From positions 372,001 to 436,000 of the forward strand of contig JAUIES010000003.1 of the NCBI GenBank assembly GCA_030429705.1: 64,000 nt of DNA. The letters run 5' to 3'. The first letter of the stretch is position 1. The number at the start of each line of letters is the position of its first letter. The stretch comes from Phycisphaerae bacterium. GTDB lineage: Bacteria > Planctomycetota > Phycisphaerae > Phycisphaerales > UBA1924. Shown here piece by piece: positions 5,417-49,035 of the stretch. The position numbers and the translations under genes were made by a program. The notes beneath the pieces were generated by a model. It was not told where the DNA came from. It saw nothing but the letters and a program-made list of their open reading frames with translations, and did not search any database.

Positions 5417-7327
5417 ATGCGAATTGGTTCGTCACTGCTCGTCCTGGCGTGTGCGACAGCAACACAGGCCCAGATTCAGATCGATCAAAGGACTTTCGGC
5501 ACGAGTCGTGCCGGAGAGCCTCTTCATGTTTACGCCGTCACCGCGCTCAGTTCAGACCAAGCCGACACCCGCCCGGCGCTTCTTGTCATCGCAGGTGTCG
5601 ATGCCGCTCATCGCGTCGGGATCGATGTCGCCGAACTGCTCGCAAACCGCGACTGGTCAGACGCAGCAGAACTGCTTGAAACCAAAACGCTTTACATCAT
5701 TCCAAATCTCAATCCCGATGGTATGCATTGGCTCACCGGAGACGACGGTCCAAGCGTTGAACTCGGACGCACGCGATCTCCGTTCGATGCCGACCGTGAC
5801 GGCCGGCTCAACGAAGATCCACCCGACGATCTCAACGGCGACGGCATGATCGGAATGATGCGCGTTTTTGACCCCCCCGCACGATACGGTTTCGATATCT
5901 CGATGGTGGCCGAGTCCGACGATCCAAGGCTCGCACGGCAAGCGAAGGCGACTGATGGAGAAAAGGGCGCATTCACCCTCATCACCGAAGGCATCGACAA
6001 CGACGGCGACGGACTGTTCAACGAGGATGGCTTCGGAGGACCAGGCTCGGGTGTCGACCTGAACCGCAACTTCCCCACCCATTTCCCCGAGTTTGAAGAA
6101 GGCTCCGGCTCGATTCCACTCAGCGAACCCGAGACGCGATCACTCGTCGAGTGGGTCCAGAGTCGCCGCAACATCGTTGGTGTGCTCGTCCTCGGACGAG
6201 GCGATAGTTTCCTCAACGCGCCGCCCACCGGCAAGTACGACCAGACCGGCCGCATCCCGAAGGGTCTTGAAAAAGCAGATGAGGCTTACCACCAGCACCT
6301 CGCCAAGTCGTACAAGAAAACAGTGTCAATGGACAACGCGCCCACTCCAAACCATGAGGGTTCCCTACTGTCGTGGGCGTACGCCGATTTCGGCGCTTGG
6401 GCGTTCGAGTCCGCCGTGTGGTCTCGTCCGCAGTCTGCAAATGGGACTGACGACAGAGAAACTGCGGGTGAAAACGATGCCGATGAGCCAGCATCCCCCC
6501 CGGCCAGCCCAGCCGATGAACGGGTAAACCTCATCGAGAGCGGCGTGCCCGAAGAAATCGCCATCTTTCTCACCGCGACACCAGAAGAGAGGCAGGAAAT
6601 TGCGGACGCATTCCAAGCCAGTTCTCAGGAAGAACAAGCAGCCAAGATGGCAGCCGTCGGTGAACTCCCGCCCGAACTCCAGGCACGCATGATGGCTGCC
6701 ATTCAGCAAACCGCAGGCGGTGAAGTCGGTGACCAGCCGGCCGCACCACCAACCGTGAAACCTTCCCCGACCAAACCCAATGACAGCAATGATGGTAAGT
6801 GGCTGACCTACAGCGACGAACAGCGCGATGGTGAAGGTTTCGTTGAGTGGACACCGTTCGACCACCCTCAACTCGGACCGGTCGAAATCGGCGGGTTCGT
6901 GCCAGGTTTCCGCATCAACGCTCCTGCAGGTCTGACGCACACGCTCGCCGACGAACAAGCATCCGTCATTCAATCGCTTCTCGAAGCCCTGCCGGTCGTC
7001 GAAGTGAACGAACCGGTCATCGAACGCCTCGGCGAGCGGGTTTGGCGCGTGTCGGTCGAACTCTGCAATCCCAGTTTCCTGCCAACCAGTTCTACCGTCG
7101 GCCTCAAAATCCGCCAACCGATCGCCGTTGACCTTGTTCTCGATGCCAAACGAATCGCCGTCGGCCGACGCATCGTCATCATCAATCGGTTGCTCGGCTC
7201 TGGTGATTGCGAGCGCGTCGAGTGGGTCATCACCGGTGAGGCCGGCGAAGGCATCGCCATCCAGGTTCGTTCTGAACGGTTCGGCATTCAAGAAGTCCAG
7301 GCGACACTCGAAGGAGATCAGCCGTGA
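5417..7327 (+). CDS. M14-type carboxypeptidase homologue lacking zinc ligands (probable pseudo-peptidase)
   Basis: Exported protein of about 636 residues with a signal peptide ending near ATATQAQ. ATG 5417 has GGAG 8-11 bases upstream. The M14 fold is recognisable from DLNRNFP (near 214-220), a conserved WAFES with Glu near 331, and two Ca-loop-like inserts (DADRDGRLNED and DNDGDGLFNEDG) shared with the next gene. The zinc site is abnormal: where the neighbour reads NIHGNE this protein reads GVDAAH, so the HxxE His and Glu become Asp62 and His65. The third-ligand region reads LGRGDS instead of a His-containing motif. A low-complexity Pro/Glu/Ala segment lies at about 345-460. It overlaps the next gene by 4 bases (GTGA), so the two are translationally coupled paralogues. 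Loss of activity is inferred from motifs. Confidence 0.82.
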   Translation: MRIGSSLLVLACATATQAQIQIDQRTFGTSRAGEPLHVYAVTALSSDQADTRPALLVIAGVDAAHRVGIDVAELLANRDWSDAAELLETKTLYIIPNLNPDGMHWLTGDDGPSVELGRTRSPFDADRDGRLNEDPPDDLNGDGMIGMMRVFDPPARYGFDISMVAESDDPRLARQAKATDGEKGAFTLITEGIDNDGDGLFNEDGFGGPGSGVDLNRNFPTHFPEFEEGSGSIPLSEPETRSLVEWVQSRRNIVGVLVLGRGDSFLNAPPTGKYDQTGRIPKGLEKADEAYHQHLAKSYKKTVSMDNAPTPNHEGSLLSWAYADFGAWAFESAVWSRPQSANGTDDRETAGENDADEPASPPASPADERVNLIESGVPEEIAIFLTATPEERQEIADAFQASSQEEQAAKMAAVGELPPELQARMMAAIQQTAGGEVGDQPAAPPTVKPSPTKPNDSNDGKWLTYSDEQRDGEGFVEWTPFDHPQLGPVEIGGFVPGFRINAPAGLTHTLADEQASVIQSLLEALPVVEVNEPVIERLGERVWRVSVELCNPSFLPTSSTVGLKIRQPIAVDLVLDAKRIAVGRRIVIINRLLGSGDCERVEWVITGEAGEGIAIQVRSERFGIQEVQATLEGDQP

Positions 7328-9060
7328 AATTATTCTTTAACGCAATGATCGGTACATGTCTCGGCTTGTTGATGTCAACCCCCGCAGTTGCGCAGGAGCA
7401 TATCAAGAGCCGCGTCGATCTCAGTTTTAATCGCTATTACGACTACGACGAGATCGCTGACGCGATGCACAAGATCGCGTTTGCCTACCCCGAGCTTGTC
7501 GAGGTGCGAAGCATCGGCAAGAGCGGTCAAGGCCGCGACATGTGGATCGCGATTGTGAATCCCAAATCCGGCCCTCTCGATTCCGATAAACCGGCAATGT
7601 TCATTGATGGCAATATCCATGGCAACGAGATTCAGGCGGCTGAAACAGTCCTCTACACACTCTGGTATCTCGCCAAAGCCTACGGCGAAAATGATCACCT
7701 CACCGAACTCATGGATAACTACGCGTTCTACCTGCTTCCGGTCGAGAATCCGGACAGCCGTGCATGGTGGTTCAGCAAGATCGCTTCACCGCACGGTCCA
7801 CGAGGCAATCAGCGCCCACAAGATGACGATGGCGACGGCCTGATCGACGAGGACGGCCCGGACGATCTCGATGGCGACGGGTCCACCACACAGATGTGGA
7901 TCCGCGATCCTGACGGCGAATGGATCCGTGATCGCTACGACGACCGTATCTTTTCGCGCGTGCCGGCCGGTGAAAAAGGTGAGTGGACGCGGCTCGGCCA
8001 GGAAGGCATCGACAACGATGGCGACGGCCGCACCAATGAAGACGGCACCACCGCCGACGATATGAACCGTAACTGGCCAGCGGACTGGAAGCCGAACTAT
8101 GTGCAGCGCGGTGCAGGGTTCTTCCCCCTCAGCAATCCAGAAACGCGATCAATCGCAAACTTCGTCGCGGCAAAGCCCAACATCGCCGGGTACCAGAGTT
8201 ACCACAACTCGGGCGGCATGATCCTCCGCGGTCCGGGTGCCTCGTACCGCAATGACTTCTACCCCGGTACCGATGTCCGGGCCTACGACACCATCGCCGA
8301 CATGGGTGAAACGCTGCTCCCGTATTACCGTTCAATGGTAATCTACCGCGATCTCTACGGCGTCCACGGCGGCGAAGTGAACTGGACCGGCGAAAGTCTT
8401 GGCATCATTTCATTTACCAACGAACTCTGGGCAGGTGGCAAGTACTTCCAGCGTGACGGCACGACCGACGAAGCCAGAATGTGGGCATGGCGCGACAACC
8501 TCGACTTTGGTCAGACCTTCACGCCCTATACCGAAGTCGAACACCCCGAGCACGGCACTGTCCTCGTGGGGGGGCTCAACAAATGGGCAAGTCGGAACAC
8601 ACCAACATTCATGCTCGAAGAAGAAGCCCACCGCAACTTTGCATTCACGATGTTCCATGCCGGGCAAATGCCAAGGCTGGCTGTCGAACAGGTTGATCTC
8701 GAAAATCTGGCCGAGGGTCTCTGGCAGATCACCGTCGAAATCTCCAATGAAGGAGCCATTCCGTCACGCACGGAGATCATGAGTCGCCGAGGCATCGGCA
8801 CCAAGGACATCCTCGAACTGCGGTTGCCAGAAGGTGCACGGGTGGTCATGAGCGGAGCCATCTCCAATCGGCGTGATACCAGCATGAACGAGGTTCGCTT
8901 CGAGCCAGGCCGCGTCTTGCTCGACCGCGGCGTTCCCGGCAAGGGGAGCATTCTGCATCGCTTCATTGTCGAAGCACCAGACGGCACCGATGCCGAACTT
9001 GTCTACACCGCTGAGAAGGCGAAAAACCTCACCCACAAGGTCCGTATAGAAAGTCACTGA
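7324..9060 (+). CDS. M14 family zinc carboxypeptidase, secreted
   Basis: About 578 residues starting at GTG 7324, which overlaps the upstream stop codon and has AAGGAG at about 7311-7316. A signal peptide (FNAMIGTCLGLLMSTPAVAQ) indicates export. The M14 zinc site is complete: HGNE with His near 99 and Glu near 102, and QSYHNSGG with His near 294. The substrate-binding DMNRNWP and a catalytic Glu in FTNELWAGG (near 367) are also present. Two inserts rich in Asp/Gly (DDDGDGLIDEDG and DNDGDGRTNEDG) resemble calcium-binding loops. The C-terminal 120 residues look like a beta-sandwich (VEISNEGAIPSRTE). It probably trims C-terminal residues from peptides in the periplasm or outside the cell, perhaps together with its inactive-looking partner. 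Confidence 0.9.
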   Translation: MKLFFNAMIGTCLGLLMSTPAVAQEHIKSRVDLSFNRYYDYDEIADAMHKIAFAYPELVEVRSIGKSGQGRDMWIAIVNPKSGPLDSDKPAMFIDGNIHGNEIQAAETVLYTLWYLAKAYGENDHLTELMDNYAFYLLPVENPDSRAWWFSKIASPHGPRGNQRPQDDDGDGLIDEDGPDDLDGDGSTTQMWIRDPDGEWIRDRYDDRIFSRVPAGEKGEWTRLGQEGIDNDGDGRTNEDGTTADDMNRNWPADWKPNYVQRGAGFFPLSNPETRSIANFVAAKPNIAGYQSYHNSGGMILRGPGASYRNDFYPGTDVRAYDTIADMGETLLPYYRSMVIYRDLYGVHGGEVNWTGESLGIISFTNELWAGGKYFQRDGTTDEARMWAWRDNLDFGQTFTPYTEVEHPEHGTVLVGGLNKWASRNTPTFMLEEEAHRNFAFTMFHAGQMPRLAVEQVDLENLAEGLWQITVEISNEGAIPSRTEIMSRRGIGTKDILELRLPEGARVVMSGAISNRRDTSMNEVRFEPGRVLLDRGVPGKGSILHRFIVEAPDGTDAELVYTAEKAKNLTHKVRIESH

Positions 9061-9104
9061 TATTTGATTCGTTGTTCGGGCGAGGCTGGAACGCCCCAAA
9101 GAGG

Positions 9105-9110
9105 TATACT
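9105..9110 (+). promoter_or_regulatory. Candidate -10 box (TATACT) for a possibly leaderless transcript
   Basis: TATACT ends 8 bases before the ATG at 9119, so transcription would begin about 7 bases after the box, at or next to the start codon. There is no convincing -35 box at the right distance and no ribosome binding site, which fits a leaderless message but does not prove it. Confidence 0.35.
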
Positions 9111-9118
9111 GCCCGTCC

Positions 9119-10318
9119 ATGCGTTCGGATATTTGCTATCTCGATAACGCGGCCACCAGTTGGCCCAAACCACCCGAAGTTGCCAAGGCAATGTGCGACT
9201 TCCTGGAGACCAGTGCTGGCAACCCCGGTCGCGGTGGTCACGCGCTCGCGCGGGCTGCTTCAGCGACCATCGAAAGAGCACGCTCGGATCTCGCCAGACT
9301 GGTGCATGCCGAATGCGATCGACGCATCGTCCTCACGCATGGATGTACCGATTCGGTCAACCTCGCGATCCACGGCATCTTTCGCGGACCCATGTGCCGC
9401 CCGGCCTGTGGAAGTAAGCCCCACGCCGTCGTTTCGGCCGTCGAGCACAACGCCGTCCTCCGCACCTTGCATTGTTTTGAAGAACACGGCATCCTCGATC
9501 TGACCATCGTCCAGTGCGGAGAAGACGGTCTCATCGATCCCGATGACTTCCTCAACGCCTGCACAAAACGCACGACCCTCGCATGTCTGTCCCACGCGTC
9601 CAATGTCCTCGGCACGATTCAACCGGTACAGGAAGTGGGGGCAGGTCTGAAAGAACGCAGCCCGTGTGCGCTCTTCCTCGTTGATGCCGCTCAAACCGCC
9701 GGGCATATGGAACTCAAAACCTGCGAATGGGGTATCGATCTCATGGCCATCGCCGGCCATAAAGGTCTCCTCGGCCCGACCGGCACCGGTGCGCTCTATG
9801 TCGGATGCTGCGCCTACCCCGACGAAACCGACAAGCCGCACCTGTTCTGTGAACGCCGAGGGGGGACCGGGGCGGTGGCGCCTGGGCTCGATATGCCGCA
9901 GGTCTTGCCCGACGCACTCGAAGCCGGAACGATGAACGCAGTCGGTTTTGCCGGCCTGTCCGCGGCGATTGAAGTCCTGCCGACCATCGATCACGCGCAC
10001 GAGCAAGCACTGATCGGGCGCATGCTCGAAGGTCTGCAATCAATCGATGGTGTCAAGTTGTATGGCATGCCGACGACAGCAGGCCGAACCTGCTCGATCG
10101 CCTTCAATATCACGGACAAGCCCGCCCGCGATGTTGCCGCCGAGCTCGATCAGTCCGACAACATCGCGGTGCGCGGGGGGGTGCATTGCGCCCCGATGCT
10201 CCACGAAGTCATCGGCAGCGGCGTACGCGGTGCCGTCCGCGCCAGCCCCAGCCCGTGGAACACGGTCGCCGAAGTCGAAGGCTTCCTCGCCGCCATTGAC
10301 CGAATCGCCGCAGGCTGA
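9119..10318 (+). CDS. Cysteine desulfurase family protein (aminotransferase class V)
   Basis: PLP-dependent enzyme of 399 residues expected to release sulfur from cysteine. The N-terminal YLDNAATSWPKP, the Schiff-base lysine in IAGHKGLLG (Lys near 215) and the catalytic cysteine in RGGVHCAPM (Cys near 357) are all present. This motif order and the short length fit the SufS-like subgroup of small desulfurases (the TIGR01977 type, by recollection). No IscU, SufU or SufBCD gene is nearby, so the sulfur acceptor is unknown. A TATACT box 8 bases upstream and the lack of a ribosome binding site suggest leaderless translation. Cytoplasmic, with no signal sequence. Confidence 0.9.
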   Translation: MRSDICYLDNAATSWPKPPEVAKAMCDFLETSAGNPGRGGHALARAASATIERARSDLARLVHAECDRRIVLTHGCTDSVNLAIHGIFRGPMCRPACGSKPHAVVSAVEHNAVLRTLHCFEEHGILDLTIVQCGEDGLIDPDDFLNACTKRTTLACLSHASNVLGTIQPVQEVGAGLKERSPCALFLVDAAQTAGHMELKTCEWGIDLMAIAGHKGLLGPTGTGALYVGCCAYPDETDKPHLFCERRGGTGAVAPGLDMPQVLPDALEAGTMNAVGFAGLSAAIEVLPTIDHAHEQALIGRMLEGLQSIDGVKLYGMPTTAGRTCSIAFNITDKPARDVAAELDQSDNIAVRGGVHCAPMLHEVIGSGVRGAVRASPSPWNTVAEVEGFLAAIDRIAAG

Positions 10319-36888: not shown

Positions 36889-38154
36889 ATGGTTGATCAG
36901 TCCCCAGCCCAGGCTGGCACGGGCGCAAAGCCGGTGATTGAATGTCGCAAACTGACCAAGGTCTTCAAAGACTTCTGGATGCGCGACCGTGCGCGTGCGG
37001 TCGAGTCGTTGTCTTTTGACATTCATCCGCACGAGGTCTTTGGGCTGCTCGGGCCGAACGGTTCCGGGAAGAGCACGACGATCAAAATTCTGCTCGGGCT
37101 GCTGCGACCGACATCGGGCCGCGTACTGGTGTTTGGTCATTCGCCGAACGATGTGCAGACGAAGCGTCGGATCGGATACCTGCCGGAGGAGTCCTATCTC
37201 TATCAGTTTCTGAATGCCCGCGAAACACTCGATTACTACGGCAAGTTGTTCCATCTGGACCACCGCACGCGCACACGCCGCATCGACGAGTTGCTCGACA
37301 TGGTCGGTCTCACGCACGCACAGTTCCGTCCGGTGCGTGAATACTCAAAGGGGATGCAGCGGCGTATCGGTCTTGCGCAGGCGCTCATCAATGACCCTGA
37401 CTTGTTGATCCTCGACGAACCAACCACCGGGCTCGACCCGATTGGCACGCGTCAGGTGAAAGACCTGATCATCGAACTCGGTCGGCGTGGCAAAACCGTT
37501 TTGCTGTCGAGCCACCTGCTTGCGGATGTTGAAGATGTGGTCGATCGGATGGCGATTCTCTATGGCGGTTCGAAACGCGATGAAGGGACATGCGACGACC
37601 TGCTCACGATGAAGAATCTGACGCAGATTGAGACCGACGGGCTTGATGATGCCACGATTGCGGAGATCGATGAGGTCATTCGTAGACGAACGGCTGGTGC
37701 GGCGGCGATCCATAGCGTGACCAAGCCCCGGCAGAAACTCGAAGAGTTGTTCCTGGGCATCGTCGAGAAAGCGCAGGCAGAACGCATGTCAACGAGCGGC
37801 GCCATGCAGGGCGGCGTGACCGCTGAGTTCCTGCGAGCCGATGAAGAGGAAGGCGAAGCACTGATCGAAAACCTGATGCGTGAAGAGCCGGTCGGGCGAC
37901 CGGTCGACGAGTTACTCGCCGAAGCAGACAGCCCGCAAGAGCCGCTACCTGCGGACGATGGTTCTGACCGCGACTTGATCGATGCTCTGGTCTCAGATAC
38001 GGATGACGCGCCACCTCGTTCACATTCAGATGAATCGCATGATTTGTCGAACGACGACGAGCGATCTTCTCCCGTTCAGCGTGAAGATGATGTGGACCGC
38101 AGTGTGATCGATTCATTGCTCGATGCTGATGATGAAGGAGCGCCCAAGCCGTGA
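36889..38154 (+). CDS. ABC transporter ATP-binding protein with acidic repeat tail
   Basis: Protein of 421 residues. The nucleotide-binding domain (residues 15-250) is complete: Walker A GPNGSGKST (55-63), signature YSKGMQRR (from 152), Walker B LLILDEP (Asp near 176) and LSSHLLADVEDV with the switch His. It resembles ATPases of ABC-2 exporters (CcmA/NatA/GldA type). Residues 300-421 form an unusual acidic, probably disordered tail in which a short motif recurs: ALIENLMREE (324), VDELLAEAD (about 340), DLIDALVSD (about 362) and SVIDSLLDADD (about 405). It overlaps the permease gene by 4 bases (GTGA), so they are surely partners. Confidence 0.92.
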   Translation: MVDQSPAQAGTGAKPVIECRKLTKVFKDFWMRDRARAVESLSFDIHPHEVFGLLGPNGSGKSTTIKILLGLLRPTSGRVLVFGHSPNDVQTKRRIGYLPEESYLYQFLNARETLDYYGKLFHLDHRTRTRRIDELLDMVGLTHAQFRPVREYSKGMQRRIGLAQALINDPDLLILDEPTTGLDPIGTRQVKDLIIELGRRGKTVLLSSHLLADVEDVVDRMAILYGGSKRDEGTCDDLLTMKNLTQIETDGLDDATIAEIDEVIRRRTAGAAAIHSVTKPRQKLEELFLGIVEKAQAERMSTSGAMQGGVTAEFLRADEEEGEALIENLMREEPVGRPVDELLAEADSPQEPLPADDGSDRDLIDALVSDTDDAPPRSHSDESHDLSNDDERSSPVQREDDVDRSVIDSLLDADDEGAPKP

Positions 38155-40061
38155 AACTCGCGTCGGCCCTCGCTTCTCTCGATCGTGTTCAGAAGTCGCG
38201 TGGCTTCAAGATCACCGCGTCCATCGTGATCGTTGCGATCGCGATTGGTGTCATTGGTTGGTACACGGTGGGGGTGACCTCCGGCACCGTCGAAGCGGCT
38301 GGCGGGGGCGATCGAGTTCTCAACAACGACGCGCAGCAGGCGATTGAACGCATGGCGCGGGCGGCTGCAAGCCCGATGTCATTTGCCGTCGCATGTAGTG
38401 CAGTCGCGGGTGTCGCGATCGCGGCGATCTGGCTCGGACTGGGACTGACCTATTTCTTTCTCGGGTTGATTGCTGCAGCGGTCGCGTTTCCGCTCATGTT
38501 GTTTGATCGAACCGAGGTTTACGGCCGCCTGCTTTTGGGCGTGGTCGTTCTCAGCGCTTCGTTTTCCGCTTTGATTCAACTTTCCCGGCTGCTACTTTCT
38601 GGCGCTGGTCCGGTGCGTGCGATTGCTCGCAATGTGCTCGCCGAAGCGCTTCGCATGCGTGTGAGCGTGGTGTTTATCGTCTTGCTGATTTTGGGTCTTG
38701 CGTTGTTGCCGGGGATGCTGGATGAATCGCAGCCTTTGCGATATCGGGTGCAATCGTTCCTGCAATACGCGACCGGCGGCACATTCTGGATGCTGGCCCT
38801 GCTCACGCTCATCTTTGGAGTGACGACACTTTCCAACGAACAACGCAGCAGAGCGATCTGGCAGACCGTGACCAAGCCTGTTGCAGCGTGGAAGTACTTG
38901 CTTGGCAAGTGGGTGGGGCTCGTGACGCTGCAGGGCGTGCTGCTTGCGGTTTGTGCCACAGCCATTTTCCTGTTCTCAAGTTACCTGCGACAACAACCGG
39001 CGAATGGCGAGACGGTGGCATTCGTTGCAACGGCTGGCGGTGTGTCTGACGACCGGTTGATGCTTGAGACGCAGGTGCTGACCGCAACGAGCAGAGTTGA
39101 ACCGGTCGTGCCGTTCAATGCCAACGATGAGGGTTTCATCGAGGCGGTTGAGCAATACATCAAGAACGCTCGCATTTCCGATCCGACCTTTGCCGATGAC
39201 CCGGCCTTGCGTCGCAAGGTAGAGAGCGATCTGTTCAAGTCGCTCGTGCAGGCGTATCGATCGATCGATCCGCAGCAGGAGATGGGCGGGGAACGCTACA
39301 AGTTCCGTGGACTCTTGCCCGCCAAGGAGCGAGCCCTGCCGATCACGCTTCGTTACCGCATTGATGCGGCGGGGAATCGACCCGATCAGTTTTACATGTT
39401 GAGTTTCGTGATGCCCGACGGCCGAGTCATGACCAGGCGCACGGGTCTCGGGATGTTCCACACCATGACGCTGCCCGCCGGCTACATTGACGATGCGGGC
39501 GAGTTTGACCTGCTGGTCTACAACGGGGAGATTCGAGAAGGCCCGGGCGGCGGGCCGGTGATCGCGCCGAACCCTTCGACTATGACATTCCCCCCCTATG
39601 GGCTGCATATTTCCTACCAGGCAAGCAGTTATCAGATGAACTTTCTGCGCGTCATGGCGGTGCTCTGGCTCAAACTCGCGTTTATTGCCATGCTGGCGAT
39701 CTGTGCGTCGACCTTTCTCAGTTTCTCGGTCGCGTCACTGGTGTCGATCTCGATCTTTCTCATGGCTGAAACAGCGGGGTTCCTGTCAAACTCAGTTGAT
39801 TTGTACAACACGACCGACCACGACGGCAATCTGGTCTTCTGGCGTGTCGTTGTAGTCTGGATTTCGGCTCGGGTGTCCGAGTTGTTTGGTGTGTACACAC
39901 GACTCGACCCGGTCGGGCGACTGGTCGACGGGCAACTGATGAGTTGGTCGACCGTGGCCTATGGCACCATCGTGCTTGCGATCGTCACACTATTGCTGTA
40001 CGGCCTGGGCGTTGCCATCTTCCGCAAGCGTGAACTGGCGATTTACTCGGGTGGGGGTTAA
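38151..40061 (+). CDS. ABC-2-type permease with large extracytoplasmic domain
   Basis: Protein of 636 residues starting at GTG 38151. Four to five hydrophobic segments in the first 145 residues precede the canonical permease start AIARNVLAEALRMRV, the same motif as in the divergent permease at 31882. A cytoplasmic loop follows (LSNEQRSRAIWQTVTKPV). Between a helix ending near 282 (CATAIFLFSSYL) and one starting near 503 (VLWLKLAFIAMLAI) lies a soluble region of roughly 220 residues, too long for a simple loop and likely a folded domain outside the membrane. The final helices end at FRKRELAIYSGGG. It partners the ATPase encoded immediately upstream; the substrate is unknown. Confidence 0.85.
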   Translation: MKLASALASLDRVQKSRGFKITASIVIVAIAIGVIGWYTVGVTSGTVEAAGGGDRVLNNDAQQAIERMARAAASPMSFAVACSAVAGVAIAAIWLGLGLTYFFLGLIAAAVAFPLMLFDRTEVYGRLLLGVVVLSASFSALIQLSRLLLSGAGPVRAIARNVLAEALRMRVSVVFIVLLILGLALLPGMLDESQPLRYRVQSFLQYATGGTFWMLALLTLIFGVTTLSNEQRSRAIWQTVTKPVAAWKYLLGKWVGLVTLQGVLLAVCATAIFLFSSYLRQQPANGETVAFVATAGGVSDDRLMLETQVLTATSRVEPVVPFNANDEGFIEAVEQYIKNARISDPTFADDPALRRKVESDLFKSLVQAYRSIDPQQEMGGERYKFRGLLPAKERALPITLRYRIDAAGNRPDQFYMLSFVMPDGRVMTRRTGLGMFHTMTLPAGYIDDAGEFDLLVYNGEIREGPGGGPVIAPNPSTMTFPPYGLHISYQASSYQMNFLRVMAVLWLKLAFIAMLAICASTFLSFSVASLVSISIFLMAETAGFLSNSVDLYNTTDHDGNLVFWRVVVVWISARVSELFGVYTRLDPVGRLVDGQLMSWSTVAYGTIVLAIVTLLLYGLGVAIFRKRELAIYSGGG

Positions 40062-40078
40062 GTCTTGGAGCGTGATCA

Positions 40079-42046
40079 ATGTCAGGCATGAAGGTCAAAA
40101 TCATCGCCCTGCTGATCGCCCTGCTGGGGCTCGGTGGATCGAGCGTGATGTCGTTCGCGCTTTCGCGGTCCGTCGGTCAGCACCGCCTCGCCTATACCGA
40201 TCGCGTTGAAGAGGGTGACCCGCCGCAGGTTGCTGCCGGTATTGCCATGGGCGCGTTCAAGGGGCTCTTTGTCAATATCCTCTGGATTCGCGCCAATGAA
40301 CTCAAGGAAGAGGGCAAGTACCACGAAGCAATCGAACTTGCCAAAGCGATCACCAAACTCCAGCCACGCTTCCCGCGCGTTTGGGTCTTTCACGCGTGGA
40401 ACATGGCGTACAACATCTCGGTGGTGACGCAGACACCGGAAGAACGGTGGCAGTGGGTGCAGGCCGGGATTCGACTCCTGCGTGACGGCGGCATCCCGAA
40501 CAATCCCAACGAGACATTGCTCTATAAGGAACTCGGCTGGATCTACCTGCACAAGATCGCCGGGTATACCGACGATGCGAGTCAGTACTACAAGCGGAAG
40601 GTCGCTGAAGAGTTTCAGGTTGTGACAGGAGCCCCGCCACAGATTCGTCTGGCCGACTCGGCATCCCGCTCGGATGTCATCGCGTTGTATGCGAACTGGA
40701 TTGAAGGCATTGCGACTGCTGCTGATACGCGGCAAGGCGTGTTTGATCGGGTTCCCGAGGCTGAGGAACTCGTGCTGGCGCTTGAAGAGCAGGTCGGTGA
40801 ACCGATTGGCCTTGGGTTACTCACGAGATATACCTATCACACGGCACTCGCGACTTCGCCAAGCCGACCAGAACTCGAAGCCGCGATGGGGCCCAAGAAC
40901 CTGGCGATGGGTGCATTACTCGCCGACCCACGGTTTGCAGACGCATGGGATGAACTGATTCGTCATGCGCGCAAGCGTGTTTTGATTGACGAATACAACA
41001 TGCAGCCACACATCATGGCGCGTTTCACACGCCAGTGGGGGCCGATCGACTGGCGTCATCCGGCAGCGCACACGCTGTACTGGGGGGCGCTGGGTGTTGA
41101 GCGCGGCGAACAGCGATACACCGAAGAAACCAAGGGGTTGTTCGACTTCGTCAACTCGAATCGCGTGGTGATGCAGGCGATGCAGGAGTTGTACCGAGGC
41201 GGCGATGTGTATTTCAACTACATCGACTTTGTGCTCGGCGGCCAGGGTTTCTATATGTCGATGCCCGATCCATACTTTGCGCAGTCCTATGGCGATCTGC
41301 AGGATCAGATCGTTCGACTCGGCGGTGTCTTTGAGGACTCGTCACGGCGTGCGATGACACCATTTGCAGCTGGGTATGAAAACTTCATGGTCGATGTCGT
41401 TGCGTTGTTCTATCGCCGCGGCCAAAAGGACATCGCCGAGCAATGGCTCAACAAATTGCGTACCTTCAGCATGCAGGCGGTGAACGACCCGAACAAGGCT
41501 GAAGAATATTCGAAGCCGCTGGATGAGTTTGTGCAGTCGCAATTGTGGGACCGGTACGGCTCCCCCAATATCGCGAGACAGGAAGTCTTCGGCGCTTTGC
41601 AGGGTGCCTACCAGGCGCTTCTTCGCGCCGACACCGAGCAGTTCCATTCGTCGTACGAGTACGCCAAACAGGCGCACCGATACTACTTCAACGAGCAATA
41701 CCGTCCCATGGTCGCGAACCGTGGCACCGCTCGTATGGAGTACATGCCGAAGGACTTCCGACTGTTCGCTGGCGGCGTGTTTGCGCAGGTGTTCCAGAAT
41801 GTCCCGCTTGATGAGGCTGAGATTCTGTTTTCCTACGCAACCGATGATCTCAAACTCTTCGCATACGACATCTTGATCAGCATGTACAAAGAGATGCTGG
41901 ACGAGCGGGCGGAAGACACCGGCACACGCAACTTCGCTGCGGTGTTCCCAGAGCCGCCTGGCTTGGAGCAGTTTCGTCAAGAGCGAGATCGCATGGCTGC
42001 CGAAGAGCGTGAGTTCATCGAGAGTCTGAATGTTGAAGAGAAGTAA
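40079..42046 (+). CDS. Membrane-anchored helical-repeat (TPR-like) protein of the SPFH-ABC operon
   Basis: Protein of 655 residues. ATG 40079 has GGAG about 9 bases upstream. One N-terminal helix (IIALLIALLGLGGSSVMSF) anchors an otherwise soluble, aromatic-rich, helical protein. TPR-like units are visible early (LKEEGKYHEAIELAKAITKL, PRVWVFHAWNMAYN), with further helical hairpins such as KDIAEQWLNKLRTFS. It follows the permease gene by 17 bases, so it belongs to the same transcript. I recognise no named family. A role as an assembly or substrate-recognition subunit on the outer face of the ABC/SPFH complex is inferred from position only. Confidence 0.75.
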   Translation: MSGMKVKIIALLIALLGLGGSSVMSFALSRSVGQHRLAYTDRVEEGDPPQVAAGIAMGAFKGLFVNILWIRANELKEEGKYHEAIELAKAITKLQPRFPRVWVFHAWNMAYNISVVTQTPEERWQWVQAGIRLLRDGGIPNNPNETLLYKELGWIYLHKIAGYTDDASQYYKRKVAEEFQVVTGAPPQIRLADSASRSDVIALYANWIEGIATAADTRQGVFDRVPEAEELVLALEEQVGEPIGLGLLTRYTYHTALATSPSRPELEAAMGPKNLAMGALLADPRFADAWDELIRHARKRVLIDEYNMQPHIMARFTRQWGPIDWRHPAAHTLYWGALGVERGEQRYTEETKGLFDFVNSNRVVMQAMQELYRGGDVYFNYIDFVLGGQGFYMSMPDPYFAQSYGDLQDQIVRLGGVFEDSSRRAMTPFAAGYENFMVDVVALFYRRGQKDIAEQWLNKLRTFSMQAVNDPNKAEEYSKPLDEFVQSQLWDRYGSPNIARQEVFGALQGAYQALLRADTEQFHSSYEYAKQAHRYYFNEQYRPMVANRGTARMEYMPKDFRLFAGGVFAQVFQNVPLDEAEILFSYATDDLKLFAYDILISMYKEMLDERAEDTGTRNFAAVFPEPPGLEQFRQERDRMAAEEREFIESLNVEEK

Positions 42047-42115: not shown

Positions 42116-43102
42116 TCACCCGAGCAATAGATCGCGCGCTTCGGTGTACTTCGCCAGCGTTCCTGCGATGACGCGATCGGGGAGCACCGGGCCGGGGTCA
42201 GTCTTGTCCCATTGACCAGCCTGAACCAACGCTTCGAGATACTCGCGTACGAATTGCTTATCGAAACTCGGCTGCGGTCCGCCTGGGGCGTATCCGTCTG
42301 CCGGCCAGAACCTCGAACTGTCTGGCGTGAGCGCTTCGTCGATCAGAATCGGTTCGTGACTGCTGATCGATCCATCTTCGTGCACGGGCAATCCAAACTC
42401 AAATTTTGTGTCCGCGATGATGAGCCCGCGCGCTTCAGCGTGTTGTGAAGCCATCGAGTAAATCGCGATCGACAGGTCGCGCAGTTTGGTCATCAGATCC
42501 GAACCAACCAAAGCACATGCCTGGTCGAACGAGATGTTTTCGTCGTGTTCCCCGCGTTCGGCTTTGGTGGCCGGTGAAAAGATGGGCTCGGGCAATCGGT
42601 CGCATTGCTGCAGTCCCGCAGGCAGGGAGATCCCGCACACAGAGCCGGTCTGCTGATAGTCTTTCCAACCACTTCCCTCGAGATAGCCGCGCACGATGCA
42701 CTCGACCGGGATGACCTGGCACCGCCTCCCGATCATGCACCGTCCGGCGAGGTCCGAGCGTGTGGTTTGCGAGCCTTCAAATGCGGCATCGGGTATCACA
42801 TCAGGGTTCACCGTACGCAGGTGTGTTTTGCATAGACCCGCCTGTTCGATGGCGGTGAGCCAGAACGCAGCGATCTCTGTGAGAATGGCCCCTTTACCGG
42901 GAATGGGAGTCGGCAAGACCACATCAAACGCCGAGAGCCGATCGGTCGCAATCAGCAGCAACGATGGTTCCGCAATCGTGCCAGCCGGAAGGGGATAAAC
43001 ATCGCGGACCTTGCCAGCGATGCGCCCGGCAAGGCGCAGATCAGTCTCGCAGACTGCGGTCTGCGGAATAGGGGAGGTCGATTGGTATATTCTGGGATTC
43101 AC
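42116..43102 (-). CDS. purC: Phosphoribosylaminoimidazole-succinocarboxamide synthase (SAICAR synthase)
   Basis: Purine-pathway enzyme of 328 residues joining aspartate to CAIR with ATP. Diagnostic segments are GKVRDVY, ATDRLSAFDVVLP, PVECIVRGYLEGSGWKDY, KAERGEHDENISF and IADTKFEFGL. The length fits the longer form common outside Firmicutes. It is divergent from the GH10-like gene with a 116-base gap, and convergent with the SPFH-ABC operon. No other pur gene is in the window. Confidence 0.97.
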   Translation of the reverse strand: MNPRIYQSTSPIPQTAVCETDLRLAGRIAGKVRDVYPLPAGTIAEPSLLLIATDRLSAFDVVLPTPIPGKGAILTEIAAFWLTAIEQAGLCKTHLRTVNPDVIPDAAFEGSQTTRSDLAGRCMIGRRCQVIPVECIVRGYLEGSGWKDYQQTGSVCGISLPAGLQQCDRLPEPIFSPATKAERGEHDENISFDQACALVGSDLMTKLRDLSIAIYSMASQHAEARGLIIADTKFEFGLPVHEDGSISSHEPILIDEALTPDSSRFWPADGYAPGGPQPSFDKQFVREYLEALVQAGQWDKTDPGPVLPDRVIAGTLAKYTEARDLLLG

Positions 43103-43218: not shown

Positions 43219-45114
43219 ATGGCGTTCGGTATGCTGAGTTTCGTGGTGTTTGATGGTGATCTCCCGGCGGCCGAGTTCGCCGTTCGCCATGCGCACCTGA
43301 TCGGTCCCGACAATGTGCCCGTGCCCGGCGAGATTAATTTTCAGACCGGGTGCGTGCGATGCGTGAAGACCAATCCCGAAGCCGCCGGGCTTTCGCTCCA
43401 GATGGCGATGGACAAGAACACGCTGCATCTGCTCTCACCAACGCGCAGTGGCGACGACGATCTTGACGAAAGAGCATTCCGTGAAAAAGTGCGAGCCGAG
43501 CGCAAGCGTCGCGCCATGGCGCAGCACGATGCCTCGGCTGCCGATGCGATCGGCCCGGAGACGGATATCCCGCTCGAGCCGCTCGGTGTGCTGACGCTGC
43601 AGACCTGCCTCCTGCCTGAGCGGAACGAACCATACTTGTTGAGTCTGGAACTGGCTCGTCATCGGCTCATGCAGTTTCTCGTCAAACTCGAAGAATGGCA
43701 ATTGTTCGACCTGCCTCTCGATCATCCAATCATGGTCCTGTTCGAGCAAGCGAGACTGACTTTTACCGACGCTCTCGTCGCCCAGCGTCACGGTATTGGT
43801 GAAGGCGCCGCCGGCACCGACCAGACCTTCGGATATTCACCAGATGCGAACCGTCTGGCGATGCGGGCGCTGTGGCTCGCGATTGAAGCGGGGGAGCGTC
43901 AGGCGTTGCTCCACGCAGCCACCGATTTCGAGCCGCGCATGTCGGGTGAAATCCATCGTCAGGCGATCGAAGATCAACCGGGGGGGTCAAGTGATCGCAC
44001 AGCAGCCGGCAAGACCGCAACTGTCGTGACGACCAACCGACCGGGCGTTGTCCTTCCAACACGACCGGCCATCGGGTGCGCCGTCTCACCGTCCGCATTC
44101 TTTGAAGCGGCTCAAGAGACAGCCCTGCGATCATGCGAGTTTATCTCGATGCCGATGCGGTGGGCCGAGCTCGAACCGACCGAAGGCAAGTACTTGTTCC
44201 AGAACACCGATCGCTGGATCGAGTGGGCGGTGCGCAAGGCGAAAGTACCCGTTGTTGCCGGACCGATCATTGATCTGCGACCGGGGGCTGTGCCCGATTG
44301 GTTGTACATCTGGGAGAACGACTACGAGACACTTCGTGAGTTGATCTATGAGCATGTAAAAAATGTGGTGACCAGATACCGCCGCACAATTGCGCGATGG
44401 ACCGTTGTTTCGGGTCTTCATGCAAACAACAATTTTCATCTCGGCTTTGATCACATGATGGACCTCACGCGAGTGTGCGTGATGGTGGTGCGCAAGTTGC
44501 ACCCGCAGGCGAAGATTCAGGTCGAGATCACTCAGCCCTGGGGCGAATACTACACGCACAATCGGCGTTCACTTCCGCCGCTCCTGTATGCGGAGATGTT
44601 GACGCAGGCCGGAATCAGCGTTGATTCCTACGCGGTTCGGTTGCAGATGGGTCAGCCTGAGCAAGGTCAGTCGGTCCGTGACTTGATGGAAATCTCTGCC
44701 ATGCTCGATCGTTGCGCGATGCTCGATCGACCGATTGCACTCACCGCTGTGGGCGTTCCATCGGGCACGCCCGAGTCGGTTGGGCATCCTGAACTTGCGG
44801 ATCGTCACCCGGGGTATTGGCGCAAGCCTTGGACAGAACAGGTGCAGGCGGACTGGGCGTCAGCGGTGTGCACGATCGCGATGTCCAAGCCGTTTATTCA
44901 AAGTGTCTGTTGGCAGGAACTGTACGACTTGCCTCAGCCTGTCGAGATGCCGCGCGGCGGGTTGATATCCGTGAGTGGCCATCGCAAACCCATTGTGGAA
45001 CGCATCATGGAGATCCGTGAATGCATGGGACAGGGCAAGCCACCGCGCGGCATCGCCGACTTTGGCGTGCTCAAGGGCGCTGCACTTGCGAGCAGCACGA
45101 GCGCAACTCGTTAG
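43219..45114 (+). CDS. GH10-like TIM-barrel protein without catalytic glutamates
   Basis: Protein of about 631 residues without signal peptide. The second half (residues 300-600) resembles glycoside hydrolase family 10: FISMPMRWAELEPTEGKY, VVAGPIIDLRPGAVPDWL and VVTRYRRTIARW. The acid/base position reads WTVVSG (Gly near 399) where GH10 has WDVVNE. The nucleophile segment reads IALTAVGVPS (Ala near 510) where GH10 has a Glu in ITExDVP-type sequences. Both catalytic Glu are therefore missing. The first 120 residues form a beta-rich domain and 120-200 a helical one. ATG 43231 is an alternative start. It is followed after 12 bases by the ComEA-like gene and then mfd. Being cytoplasmic and inactive-looking, it may be a binding or scaffold protein. 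Confidence 0.75.
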   Translation: MAFGMLSFVVFDGDLPAAEFAVRHAHLIGPDNVPVPGEINFQTGCVRCVKTNPEAAGLSLQMAMDKNTLHLLSPTRSGDDDLDERAFREKVRAERKRRAMAQHDASAADAIGPETDIPLEPLGVLTLQTCLLPERNEPYLLSLELARHRLMQFLVKLEEWQLFDLPLDHPIMVLFEQARLTFTDALVAQRHGIGEGAAGTDQTFGYSPDANRLAMRALWLAIEAGERQALLHAATDFEPRMSGEIHRQAIEDQPGGSSDRTAAGKTATVVTTNRPGVVLPTRPAIGCAVSPSAFFEAAQETALRSCEFISMPMRWAELEPTEGKYLFQNTDRWIEWAVRKAKVPVVAGPIIDLRPGAVPDWLYIWENDYETLRELIYEHVKNVVTRYRRTIARWTVVSGLHANNNFHLGFDHMMDLTRVCVMVVRKLHPQAKIQVEITQPWGEYYTHNRRSLPPLLYAEMLTQAGISVDSYAVRLQMGQPEQGQSVRDLMEISAMLDRCAMLDRPIALTAVGVPSGTPESVGHPELADRHPGYWRKPWTEQVQADWASAVCTIAMSKPFIQSVCWQELYDLPQPVEMPRGGLISVSGHRKPIVERIMEIRECMGQGKPPRGIADFGVLKGAALASSTSATR

Positions 45115-45126
45115 ACTGGAACGATC

Positions 45127-45681
45127 ATGCCGACACCACCCTCCATCTGGAAAGGCCGAATGGGTTGGGGATCGGTCGGATTCGCCGCCGGTGCTGCGTC
45201 AGTCGGCACGCTTTGGACAGGTGTCGGATCACGCGCCATTCCCGAGCCGGTCAGTCATCAACAGCCGCAGGTTGTGCTCCCATATCGAAACACCGAGCCA
45301 CCACCCGATCTGCAGATTGTTGATGCCACGCCGCCTGTGCAAGTGCCTGCGGCGAGCATTGAGCAGCCAGAACAAGATCGAGAGCCTGCTTTTCAGTCTG
45401 AGCCAGAATCTGATCGTGAGATCGCGGCGGTACCGCAACAACCGGCTGTCATTGAGCCTGCTGCCAATCCATTGCCCTCTGCGCGGCTTCTGATCAATCT
45501 GAACACCGCGTCACACGCCGAGTTGGATTTGCTACCTGGAATAGGCCCAGCGCTTGCCGATCGAATCGTTACCGAGCGCGAGCGAGGCGGGCGGTACACA
45601 TCTCTGCGTGATCTGCAGCGTGTGAGCGGGATCGGGCCTCGAACAGCCGAAAAACTCGAAGGGCTGGTCGTTTTTGAGTAG
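45127..45681 (+). CDS. Helix-hairpin-helix protein, ComEA-like
   Basis: Protein of 184 residues. A hydrophobic stretch near the N-terminus (SVGFAAGAASVGTLWTG) may be an uncleaved anchor, followed by a Pro/Gln/Glu-rich linker of about 90 residues. The last 62 residues carry two helix-hairpin-helix motifs (LNTASHAELDLLPGIGPALA and DLQRVSGIGPRTAEKLE), which bind DNA non-specifically, as in the ComEA DNA-uptake receptor. Unlike ComEA it is not next to comEC here. It sits between the GH10-like gene (12-base gap) and mfd (27-base gap). Confidence 0.85.
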   Translation: MPTPPSIWKGRMGWGSVGFAAGAASVGTLWTGVGSRAIPEPVSHQQPQVVLPYRNTEPPPDLQIVDATPPVQVPAASIEQPEQDREPAFQSEPESDREIAAVPQQPAVIEPAANPLPSARLLINLNTASHAELDLLPGIGPALADRIVTERERGGRYTSLRDLQRVSGIGPRTAEKLEGLVVFE

Positions 45682-45708: not shown

Positions 45709-48700
45709 GTGGCGATGGACCTGATCAAACATCTCAACAGCTTGCCGCAGATCGAGCTCCTGTCACAAAGACTCCGTGAAGGCTCGCGTTGTGTGGCATC
45801 CGGCGTCGCAGGGAGTTCAACGGGATTCCTCGCGGGCGCGGTCGCTGTTGCAAGCGAGCGGCCGGTGCTCCTCGTCACCGCTCACCTCGATGATGCGGAC
45901 GAGATAGCGGATGAGGTTTCGCAGGATCCGAGCGCACCCTCGGTGATTCGTGTGCCCGCGCTCGAAGCCGATGCGGGCGGGAAAAGCGTGCCTCCTGACT
46001 TGATGGCCGAGCGATTGGCCGCGGTGCGACAAGTGATCGAACTGTCACCCGATGCGCCGGTCTTGATTGTGGCGCCGATTCACGCGTTGATGCAGGAGTC
46101 CCCCAAGCCAGCTGCGATGGACGATCTTGTTCGTGTGCTTCGGGTCGGCGATTCGATCGATCAAGGTCATCTGATCGGTTGGTTGGGTGATGCCGGGTAC
46201 ACGCGCCGTGAAGTCATCGAAGAGCCGGGCGAGTTTGCAGTGCGTGGGGGGATCATCGACATCTTCCCGCCGGGCGGCATCTCGATGCCGGTCCGCATTG
46301 ATCTCTTCGGCGATGACATCGAACGCATCAACGAAGTCGACCCGGAGACACTCGGCACCGACCGGACTGTTTCATCAGTCCAGATCGTGTCAGCGAACGA
46401 AACGGAAGTCGGCGATGACAACGGGATCTGTGTTGTCGATTTGGTGCCGCGAGAATCGATCGCGATCCTCAGTGAAACGCTCGAAATCGTCGAACAGGCG
46501 CGAGGCTATTTCGAGCGCGTTCGAGACGGTCGCGGCATCCTCGGCCCGCCGGCGGTCCTTGCCAAAGTGGAATCACATTGCTCCGCCATCGCAGAAGTGA
46601 ATCAGTTTTCTGCCGGGGCTTCGACCGCGGATGTCAGAATCAGTCTGCCGTTTGAAGCACTGCCGTCGCTCTCTGAAGAGACCGCAGAAGCGATTGGGGA
46701 TTTGGTCACACTCGCGAGCGACGCAAAGGTGGTCGTTGCATGTCAGAACGAGGGTGAACTGCAAAGGCTCACCGAGTTACTGCAGGAGAACGCAGCCGAA
46801 TCGGCATCGATTGAGTCGCTCGTACGCTATGTCCATCGCGGCATGGTCATTGGTGGCGATGCCCGACTGGCGATCGTTCCATATCACGAACTTCTGCACC
46901 GGTTTGATGCTCGCCGGCGAAACACGCAGTTACGACAAGGGAAGGCGACCGACACCTTTCTCGATTTCGATGTGGGCGATTTCGTCGTGCATGCAGACCA
47001 TGGCATCGCGCGGTTTACCGGGCTCGCGTTGTTAAGGCCCAGACAACTCCCCGGATTGCCCGAGGCTCCAAAGAATGAACGCGAAGAGTACCTCACGCTG
47101 GAGTTTGCTGCGGGAACCAAACTGCATGTGCCGTGCGTCCAGATCGATCAAGTTCAACGATACATCGGGGGTTTCAGCGGCAAACCACCACTTTCGACAC
47201 TGGGGGGTGCCAAATGGAAAAACCAGAAGAAAAAGGTTACTGAATCAGTTCGAGACCTGGCCGCTGAGTTGCTCCGTGTGCGCGCCGCACGCGAACATCT
47301 GCCCGGCATCCGCTATCCAGCGGATACTCGATGGCAGACCGAGTTTGAAGCCGAGTTTCCCTACGAAGAAACGCAGGACCAGTTGGCAGCCATCGCAGCG
47401 ATCAAACGCGACATGCAGTCCGAGCAACCGATGGATCGACTGGTGTGCGGCGATGTCGGGTTTGGCAAAACCGAAGTCGCCATCCGTGCTGCATTCAAAG
47501 CATGCGAGTTTGGTAAACAGGTGGCTATTCTTGTCCCGACCACGGTGCTCGCCGAACAACACGAGCGCACCTTTTTCTCCCGGTTCCGAGACTATCCGTT
47601 TCGCGTCGAGTCGCTCAGTCGGTTCAAGACCGGCAAAGAAATTAACGACACACTACGGGATCTGCGCAAGGGGCAGATCGATGTCGTCATCGGTACTCAT
47701 CGGCTGCTTTCAAAGGATGTGAAATTCGCGGATCTTGGTCTGGTTGTGGTCGATGAAGAGCAGCGTTTCGGTGTTGAACACAAAGAACGACTGTTGCAAC
47801 TGCGCATGATGGTGGATGTACTCACGCTGTCTGCAACTCCCATCCCGCGCACGCTGCATATGGCGATGCTTGGCCTGCGCGATATATCGAGTCTGACCAC
47901 GGCACCGCTCGATCGCCGAGCGATTGTCACCGAGGTCATTCCCTTCAACGAACAGCGCATCGCCCGCGCGATCGCGCGCGAACTGGCTCGCGAGGGGCAG
48001 GTCTACTTCGTTCACAATCGAGTCCACGACATTCAATCGGTTGCGGCTGATGTGCAGAAGTTGGCTCCGGATGCCAAGATCGTCGTCGGGCACGGGCAGA
48101 TGCCGCCGAAGGAACTCGAAAGCGTGATGCTCCAGTTCATGCGCCGACAAGCCGACATTCTCGTTTCAACCACGATCATCGAGTCAGGGATTGATAACCC
48201 AACGGCAAACACCATGATCATCACTGATGCCGATCGATTCGGGCTTGCAGACTTGCATCAGTTGCGCGGGCGTGTCGGTCGATACAAGCACCGCGCCTAT
48301 TGCTACCTGCTCCTGCCGAACGATCGACCCTTGAAAGAGATCGCTCAGAAGCGGCTCAAAGCGATCGAGCAGTACGCCATGCTCGGAGCCGGATTCAAGA
48401 TTGCCATGCGCGATCTTGAGATTCGAGGTGCCGGGAACTTGCTGGGCGCCGAGCAATCGGGGCATATCGCAGCCGTCGGGTACGAGATGTACTGCCAACT
48501 GCTCGATTCTGCCGTGCATGAACTCAAAGAAGGAGCACCGTTGGTCAGATCAAGTGCGACGACCGTTGAAATTGGTGTGTCTGGCATCATCCCACGCAAG
48601 TACATCCCATCAGACGGTCGACGATTGGCAGCCTATCGGCGGCTCGCCGTCGCCGCAACAGCCAGCGAACTTGATGCCGTTCGTCAGGACATGACCGAGG

Positions 48701-49035
48701 CCTATGGCGAACCCCCACCTCAGGTAGAAAGATTGCTCGACCTGGCATCCGTTCGTGTTGCTGCGGCTCACTATGGTGTGCATACCATGACCCGCCGCAA
48801 GCAAGATGTCGTGCTGCTCACACGCGATCCGATAGCAGTCGCTTCGGCCCTCGAAGATGGACCAGGCTCGGTTCGGACGATTGGTCCGGAACTCGCTCAG
48901 ACCAACGCACGCGATTTGCAGGGTGAAAAACTGAGCGAGGTCTATTTACGCCTTCCTGCTCCATATTTTGAGGATCCTACGACGCTGGTGACCACGCTGC
49001 GGACCCGTCTCAGCCGCGGTGCAGCAATCGCCTAA
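45709..49035 (+). CDS. mfd: Transcription-repair coupling factor Mfd
   Basis: ATP-dependent translocase of 1108 residues that removes RNA polymerase stalled at DNA lesions and recruits UvrABC. The N-terminal UvrB-homology region (GSSTGFLAGAV, VRGGIIDIFPPGG), the CarD-like RNA-polymerase-interacting domain (DFVVHADHGIARFTGL, near 425-440), helicase motif I GDVGFGKTE, the Walker B-like DEEQRFGVEHKERL and the TRG region GIDNPTANTMI are all present. The C-terminal TRCF domain completes the normal length. GTG 45709 and ATG 45715 are both possible starts. It probably shares a transcript with the two upstream genes. Confidence 0.96.
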   Translation: MAMDLIKHLNSLPQIELLSQRLREGSRCVASGVAGSSTGFLAGAVAVASERPVLLVTAHLDDADEIADEVSQDPSAPSVIRVPALEADAGGKSVPPDLMAERLAAVRQVIELSPDAPVLIVAPIHALMQESPKPAAMDDLVRVLRVGDSIDQGHLIGWLGDAGYTRREVIEEPGEFAVRGGIIDIFPPGGISMPVRIDLFGDDIERINEVDPETLGTDRTVSSVQIVSANETEVGDDNGICVVDLVPRESIAILSETLEIVEQARGYFERVRDGRGILGPPAVLAKVESHCSAIAEVNQFSAGASTADVRISLPFEALPSLSEETAEAIGDLVTLASDAKVVVACQNEGELQRLTELLQENAAESASIESLVRYVHRGMVIGGDARLAIVPYHELLHRFDARRRNTQLRQGKATDTFLDFDVGDFVVHADHGIARFTGLALLRPRQLPGLPEAPKNEREEYLTLEFAAGTKLHVPCVQIDQVQRYIGGFSGKPPLSTLGGAKWKNQKKKVTESVRDLAAELLRVRAAREHLPGIRYPADTRWQTEFEAEFPYEETQDQLAAIAAIKRDMQSEQPMDRLVCGDVGFGKTEVAIRAAFKACEFGKQVAILVPTTVLAEQHERTFFSRFRDYPFRVESLSRFKTGKEINDTLRDLRKGQIDVVIGTHRLLSKDVKFADLGLVVVDEEQRFGVEHKERLLQLRMMVDVLTLSATPIPRTLHMAMLGLRDISSLTTAPLDRRAIVTEVIPFNEQRIARAIARELAREGQVYFVHNRVHDIQSVAADVQKLAPDAKIVVGHGQMPPKELESVMLQFMRRQADILVSTTIIESGIDNPTANTMIITDADRFGLADLHQLRGRVGRYKHRAYCYLLLPNDRPLKEIAQKRLKAIEQYAMLGAGFKIAMRDLEIRGAGNLLGAEQSGHIAAVGYEMYCQLLDSAVHELKEGAPLVRSSATTVEIGVSGIIPRKYIPSDGRRLAAYRRLAVAATASELDAVRQDMTEAYGEPPPQVERLLDLASVRVAAAHYGVHTMTRRKQDVVLLTRDPIAVASALEDGPGSVRTIGPELAQTNARDLQGEKLSEVYLRLPAPYFEDPTTLVTTLRTRLSRGAAIA

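Follow-up and report, generated by a model that had tools for sequence, protein, structure and literature searches.

Known pseudo-glycosidases include Klotho (GH1), XIP-I and YKL-40 (both GH18) and 4F2hc (GH13). The pseudo-glycosidase is already known as a kind of protein, and the class-wide pseudo-GH10 protein described here would, judged from its sequence, be a new variant of that kind.

For the phylum Planctomycetota, the available portion of a CAZyme survey refers to GH10 and to secretion of enzymes for lignocellulose, and the pseudo-GH10 family was not met in that portion (PMC11131199). A study of essential genes of P. limnophila describes, in its available part, many essential and phylum-specific genes of the phylum as being of unknown function, and the word 'xylanase' is absent from its main text (PMC10632474), as it is from the available part of a subcellular proteome (PMC8567305). 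Searches of the literature on Planctomycetes xylanase or GH10, inactive GH10, pseudo-xylanase and essential or signature genes, covering titles and the openings of abstracts, returned no description of the family; a prior description may exist elsewhere.

The protein is encoded in a 64,000-nucleotide stretch of DNA from a Phycisphaerae bacterium, the whole of which is termed here the window. We read it, with a probability of roughly 0.6, as a non-hydrolytic, repurposed pseudo-glycosidase that has a conserved role and is linked to a membrane helix-hairpin-helix (HhH) DNA-binding protein.

The pseudo-GH10 gene and its predicted product

43219..45114, + strand: GH10-derived pseudoenzyme gene, open reading frame of 631 aa

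The probable start is Met5 (ATG at 43231), which gives a product of 627 aa; this column is Met in 84 of the 93 rows of the first homologue set and in 118 of the 172 rows of the wider set, whose frames were untrimmed to the start. The gene is the sole PF00331 match in the genome of the window. An in-frame stop lies 10 codons upstream of the ATG of the open reading frame, and therefore no upstream signal peptide has been overlooked. The first 45 residues are not hydrophobic, their best 19-residue window having a mean hydropathy of only 0.95, and an N-terminal window of at least 1.6 was found in 1 of 172 homologue rows (counted with the outgroup row L144 and skipping a short L084 piece). A secretion signal missed through the choice of start was thus ruled out, in agreement with the initial annotation, which had noted the absence of a signal peptide, and the protein is read as cytoplasmic from these sequence features. 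An anti-phage system was ruled out separately, PADLOC matching neither the pseudo-GH10 protein nor the HhH protein.

A GH10-fold barrel behind an additional N-terminal domain

43231..44034, + strand: N-terminal domain, strands then helices (AlphaFold2 model; no relative found in Pfam or the PDB)
44056..45048, + strand: GH10-fold (beta/alpha)8 barrel, residues ~280-610 (Pfam, AlphaFold2, Foldseek, VIA-align, hhalign)

Pfam PF00331 matched residues 285-400 only, with 35.7 bits against a curated cut-off of 22.1, and a phmmer search of PDB sequences returned GH10 xylanases (best E 3.6e-9). An AlphaFold2 model of the full protein, built from 51 sequences, reached a pLDDT of 92.9 and a pTM of 0.93. 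Its best Foldseek match in the PDB was the GH10 xylanase 8b73 (E 9.1e-16), and the best GH10 in VIA-align gave a Z of 31.4 over 309 aligned residues with an rmsd of 5.7; most other VIA-align rows lay at Z ~27-29, were nearly all GH10 and covered model residues 276-606. The GH10-like barrel proposed in the initial annotation was hence recovered by both structure comparisons.

Ahead of the barrel lies a domain of ~270 residues, and in the model the two appear to form a single compact body. Its strongest-conserved block spans residues 129-160 (T129, R135, Y139, L141, E144, R147 and W160). When the N-terminal 268 residues were modelled alone, AlphaFold2 gave a pLDDT of 87.3 and a pTM of 0.84. Foldseek returned no match to this model at E<=0.001, and the best VIA-align Z was 7.5 over 106 residues, a range common for unrelated models and no proof of a new fold. 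Pfam yielded five stray families for the domain, each in 1 of 51 members, and a search of PDB sequences yielded 0 matches.

Loss of both catalytic glutamates and of the -1 subsite

44413..44415, + strand: codon of Gly399, which aligns with the acid/base Glu of GH10 (profile alignment)
44746..44748, + strand: codon of Ala510, which aligns with the nucleophile Glu of GH10 (profile alignment)

The barrel profile of the family (131 rows) was aligned by hhalign with 18 planctomycete GH10s, which had been chosen for their acid/base motif and 14 of which also carry the TE nucleophile motif by pattern. The alignment had a probability of 100 and an E of 3e-41 over 316 columns. It pairs WDVVNE with WTVVSG, placing Gly399 at the Glu and Ser398 at the Asn, and ITELD with LTAVG, placing Ala510 at the Glu. 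The initial annotation had given the same two positions and had considered both catalytic glutamates gone, as was found here.

Residues in these columns were counted in 172 homologues, the outgroup row L144, which bears Glu, having been removed beforehand. At the acid/base position, Gly occurs in 147, Ser in 12, Ala in 5 and Arg in 4; four rows have something else, one of them a gap, and Glu occurs in none. The nucleophile column holds Ala in 88, a gap in 26, Ser in 21, Gly in 17 and Glu in 3, plus others; the three Glu belong to L150, L247 and L259, none of which has an acid/base Glu. A Glu within three columns of position 510 occurs in 8 rows, these three counted, and within three columns of 399 in 1 row.

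The active site was mapped by hand from the profile alignment onto 14 GH10 residues, comprising the two catalytic Glu and E43, N44, K47, H80, W84, H85, Q87, N127, Y171, Q205, H207 and W266, which have roles around the -1 subsite. The window protein matches none of the 14. One position meets a gap, W565 lies one place off the W266 position, and the mildest changes are K47 to Arg314 and Y171 to Trp441. The barrel landmarks that the initial annotation had called preserved are largely structural. Nor is the label of a 'sugar-barrel' established, because the -1 sugar subsite has changed residues as well. Judged from its sequence, the window protein probably no longer hydrolyses beta-1,4-xylan or similar substrates.

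That the protein is still a glycoside hydrolase, its activity weak or atypical and dependent on a single acidic residue left in place or on an acid supplied from outside, would fit the Pfam score above the GH10 cut-off and the nucleophile-column Glu of three homologues. We consider it very unlikely in view of the acid/base column without a single Glu, the 14 altered active-site positions and the absent signal peptide; in addition, none of six scanned neighbouring proteins is a carbohydrate enzyme.

Distribution and phylogeny

The family profile matched 40 of the 41 nearest relatives (missing G005), 196 of the 198 genomes sampled from the class (missing G381 and G408), with all 151 sampled genera represented, and, at an E of 1e-8 or better, 156 of 343 genomes of the phylum. 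These figures are profile matches, catalytic loss having been read in the 172 homologues. The Glu-bearing relative L189 also matches the profile (2.3e-69), and a profile match alone is therefore not proof of a dead protein; all best matches in the class outscore that of L189, bar the one in G314 (5.3e-41). Approximately three quarters of the class genomes have one match, the remainder having two to eight, which are unsorted copies, pieces or ordinary GH10s. Outside the class, the genome families f30, f63, f70, f77 and f78 are probably Planctomycetia.

Sampling of homologues was centred on Planctomycetota, and 69 loci on named contigs were found with peptide patterns of the window protein. By title, 33 of these are Phycisphaerales and all are planctomycete MAGs bar two, titled as a Cyanobacteria and an uncultured bacterium; the class is accordingly taken as Phycisphaerae. 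The contig titled Cyanobacteria bacterium CYA N2_1 (L032) carries the same gene block at ~75% identity and is probably a mislabelled MAG. In another locus, from a MAG chromosome record (L084, 6594-9685), the homologue is broken up across reading frames, with pieces at 6594-8459, 8302-9549 and 9326-9685; mfd is in pieces there too, and sequencing errors are likely.

In a tree, 36 dead rows formed one clade (SH-aLRT 99), with three Glu-bearing relatives (L189, L190 and L191) and 18 other GH10s outside it; a smaller tree with 30 rows gave the same single dead clade. The clade splits into a class part of 23 rows (SH-aLRT 99) and an outside-class part of 13 rows (SH-aLRT 100), and the Glu-bearing relatives and the dead rows are together separated from the other GH10s (SH-aLRT 98). 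The single clade fits one early loss of catalysis. L150, L247 and L259 are placed within the class part, and from this placement their nucleophile Glu may be a later change. Catalysis was thus probably lost once, early; the tree fits vertical inheritance of the family from then on, with the second position changing later.

The Glu-bearing relatives (L189, 4025-5620; L190, 3291-4802; L191, 3008-4609) have the acid/base motifs WDIINE, WEIVNE and WEIANE, respectively. At beta-7, L189 and L190 have TE, and L191, with its acid/base Glu present, has TK, with Lys at the nucleophile position. No signal peptide was evident in their N-termini, which were assessed by eye. The N-terminus of L189 matched the N-terminal domain of the family by hhalign (E 3.2e-9, probability 96), those of L190 and L191 matched weakly (E 0.05 and 0.04), and those of two control GH10s gave E 0.57 and 0.71. 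The same domain architecture with a catalytic pair therefore appears, by sequence comparison, to exist at least in L189. A profile of the three relatives found near-full-score copies in 3 of 294 genomes of the phylum; its remaining matches, 35 out of 38, scored far lower, and those recognised were mostly members of the dead family.

The HhH gene as the class-wide neighbour

42116..43102, - strand: purC (SAICAR synthetase), divergent neighbour
45127..45681, + strand: helix-hairpin-helix protein of 184 aa, of membrane-anchored ComEA type, neighbour across the class
45709..49035, + strand: mfd, adjacency not retained in the class's other orders

In the window, the pseudo-GH10 gene is separated by 12 bp from the HhH gene, which is in turn 27 bp from mfd, so that the tight gene cluster described previously is upheld. 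An ABC transporter ATPase, a permease and a 655-aa TPR protein are encoded further upstream (36889-42046). Gene order was compared in four sets, namely the named-contig loci (L031-L099), loci picked from the class's other orders (L224-L263), further loci (L145-L150) and 14 loci outside the class (L131-L144, i.e. 13 dead proteins and L144), with loci having enough flank as denominators.

The HhH gene is directly next in 61/65 named loci, 33/40 other-order loci and 5/6 further loci, and in 0/14 outside the class. Mfd lies within 1.5 kb in 44/60, 0/38, 1/6 and 0/14 loci of the same four sets, the single further locus coming from the window's own order. For divergent purC the counts are 56/64, 7/39, 1/6 and 6/13, for the upstream TPR protein 41/59, 0/37, 0/6 and 0/12, and for PhoU 27/56, 0/28, 0/6 and 0/12. 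While the other neighbours are reshuffled, the HhH gene keeps its place within the class. Clustering of the 14 outside loci with six others revealed no shared downstream partner outside the class. A protein of 164-183 aa follows the HhH gene, or takes its place, in L146, L147, L148, L150, L248-L251, L253 and L258; the L148 copy, the one scanned, had no Pfam match.

The initial annotation had linked the protein to DNA-repair genes. An accessory protein of transcription-coupled repair acting with Mfd would suit the close, co-directional placement of the gene and mfd in the window and the proximity of Mfd in most named loci. However, the pseudo-GH10 itself is retained in the other-order and outside-class loci, none of which adjoins Mfd, and we regard such a role as highly improbable. 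The proposed link to repair was thus not supported, and in terms of gene order conserved across the class the HhH neighbour was confirmed and the Mfd neighbour was not.

The C-terminal HHH_3 domain of the HhH protein scored 67.1 bits in Pfam (cut-off 27; 1.5e-18). A single membrane segment is predicted, the best 19-residue hydropathy being at least 1.5 in 133 of 137 HhH homologues; the window's own copy has a weaker predicted segment, of hydropathy 1.08. Charges flanking the segment, compared with regard to its topology, are higher on the N-side in 53 homologues, higher on the C-side in 54 and tied in 30. The TIGR01259 comE score was 61.6 bits, below the cut-off of 152.35. By these features the protein appears to be of a membrane-anchored ComEA type, and no known repair protein. 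Two HHH_3 matches exceed the cut-off in the genome of the window, the HhH protein being the stronger and the other lying in a frame of 592 aa, and the genome also has ComEC; the HhH protein is therefore the best candidate for ComEA in this genome. Many HhH copies (e.g. L070, L044, L003) have a D-W-S/T motif ahead of the membrane segment, and [DE]W occurs in 38 of 137 HhH tails, possibly as a docking peptide.

Purifying selection and the former catalytic face

Between the window gene and its counterparts in L031-L033, codon positions 1, 2 and 3 differ on average by 0.21, 0.13 and 0.56, so that third positions differ 2.7 times as often as first positions and 4.3 times as often as second positions. 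The pseudo-GH10 gene is under purifying selection. W315 and P359 are invariant across the 172 rows. A decaying or spurious gene, as might be supposed from the loss of the catalytic residues, has next to no probability and was refuted by the codon-position ratios, the two invariant residues and the near-complete distribution in the class.

Other residues are conserved in most of the 172 rows, namely R487 (168), D488 (166), D570 (159) and E443 (151). The conserved residues of the catalytic face are W315, G348-P349, P359/W361, His or Asn at 401, PWGEY at 440-444, R487-D488 and D570. Of the 45 top-conserved barrel positions, 24 lie in beta-to-alpha loops, which make up 143 of 331 positions, and ~19 would be expected from that share. 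A conserved cleft was also sought by way of loop averages, with a negative result, the average conservation of beta-to-alpha loops (0.513) not exceeding that of helices (0.552). Conservation of the cleft is thus modestly supported. Positions were assigned to the cleft by strand order alone.

The main rival to a binding role is new chemistry in the old cleft, by a repurposed enzyme with, for example, E443, R487, D488 and D570 as catalysts. It would account for the conserved charged residues near the strand ends, and near-universal retention suits a needed enzyme. However, L189-L191 are charged alike at these positions (L190 has D at 443, L191 has N at 488), which gives the residues an ancestral rather than a newly acquired look. 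Furthermore, the 13 dead rows from outside the class lack H401 and E436, both conserved within it; there, position 401 is N in 11, Y in 1 and G in 1 and position 436 is never E. We thus rate a repurposed enzyme as somewhat unlikely. The relatives and the dead family also share PWGEY-like, R-D/N and other segments, and a His follows the acid/base Glu in L189-L191 as it follows the corresponding position in the dead family, so that part of the cleft wall looks ancestral by sequence.

Discussion

Set beside the computed features, which are the fold, the loss of catalytic residues, the distribution, the single clade, the absent signal peptide and the class-wide gene pair, the following course of events is proposed for a repurposed, non-hydrolytic pseudo-glycosidase. 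The ancestor would have combined the N-terminal domain with a GH10-type barrel bearing the catalytic pair. This pair and the -1 sugar subsite would have been lost, most simply once and early in the phylum, and the protein would since have been maintained without glycoside hydrolysis. The catalytic face of the barrel, with its conserved residues kept, most likely binds a ligand or partner; we infer such binding in preference to new catalysis. Within the class of the window, the pseudo-GH10 would share a process with the membrane-anchored HhH protein encoded just downstream, and we infer that the two work together at the membrane, with a presumed contact and ligand, in a putative process of DNA uptake or DNA tethering. 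As the HhH neighbour is missing in all 14 outside-class loci, and in 7 of 40 other-order loci, the role of the pseudo-GH10 is independent of this adjacency.

In a more specific form, which we regard as decidedly unlikely, the cytoplasmic dead glycosidase would partner a membrane-anchored DNA receptor from inside the cell, and the class would depend on it. Its cleft would sense or hold an envelope glycan precursor or another ligand, and thereby control how DNA is handled at the membrane, in its uptake or in tethering of the nucleoid. If this were true, it would add a new type of component to bacterial DNA uptake or chromosome-membrane organisation, in the form of a class-wide core pseudo-GH10.

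The protein is scored by Pfam as a GH10 hydrolase and is near-universal in the class, yet lacks the residues that make a GH10 hydrolase. A survey that took it for a xylanase would overestimate xylan breakdown; in the genome of the window it is the sole such match. The conserved function that it presumably has lies in a phylum described, in the available part of PMC10632474, as rich in essential genes of unknown function. Both the loss of catalysis and the putative gain of a new role can be tested directly through the Glu-bearing relatives, one of which has the N-terminal domain as well.

Comparison with known systems

Of the GH10 enzymes, AcXyn10A (8b73) and S. lividans Xyn10A (1v0l) have the barrel in common with the window protein, with VIA-align Z of 31.4 and 27.9, respectively. 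In contrast to GH10 (PF00331) enzymes, the window protein has an extra N-terminal domain and no secretion signal, and Gly399 replaces the acid/base Glu after beta-4 and Ala510 the nucleophile Glu at beta-7. L189-L191 are the nearest GH10-type rows to the dead family in the tree, and differ from it in bearing WD/WE-I-x-NE and, in L189 and L190, also TE. The HhH protein shares with ComEA a predicted N-terminal membrane anchor and a C-terminal HHH_3 domain, but falls short of the comE cut-off of TIGR01259. Klotho, XIP-I, YKL-40 and 4F2hc have a glycosidase fold without catalysis that has been reused for binding, as is proposed here. They are, however, eukaryotic and extracellular or membrane-exposed, whereas the pseudo-GH10 is bacterial, lacks a signal peptide and has the GH10 fold.
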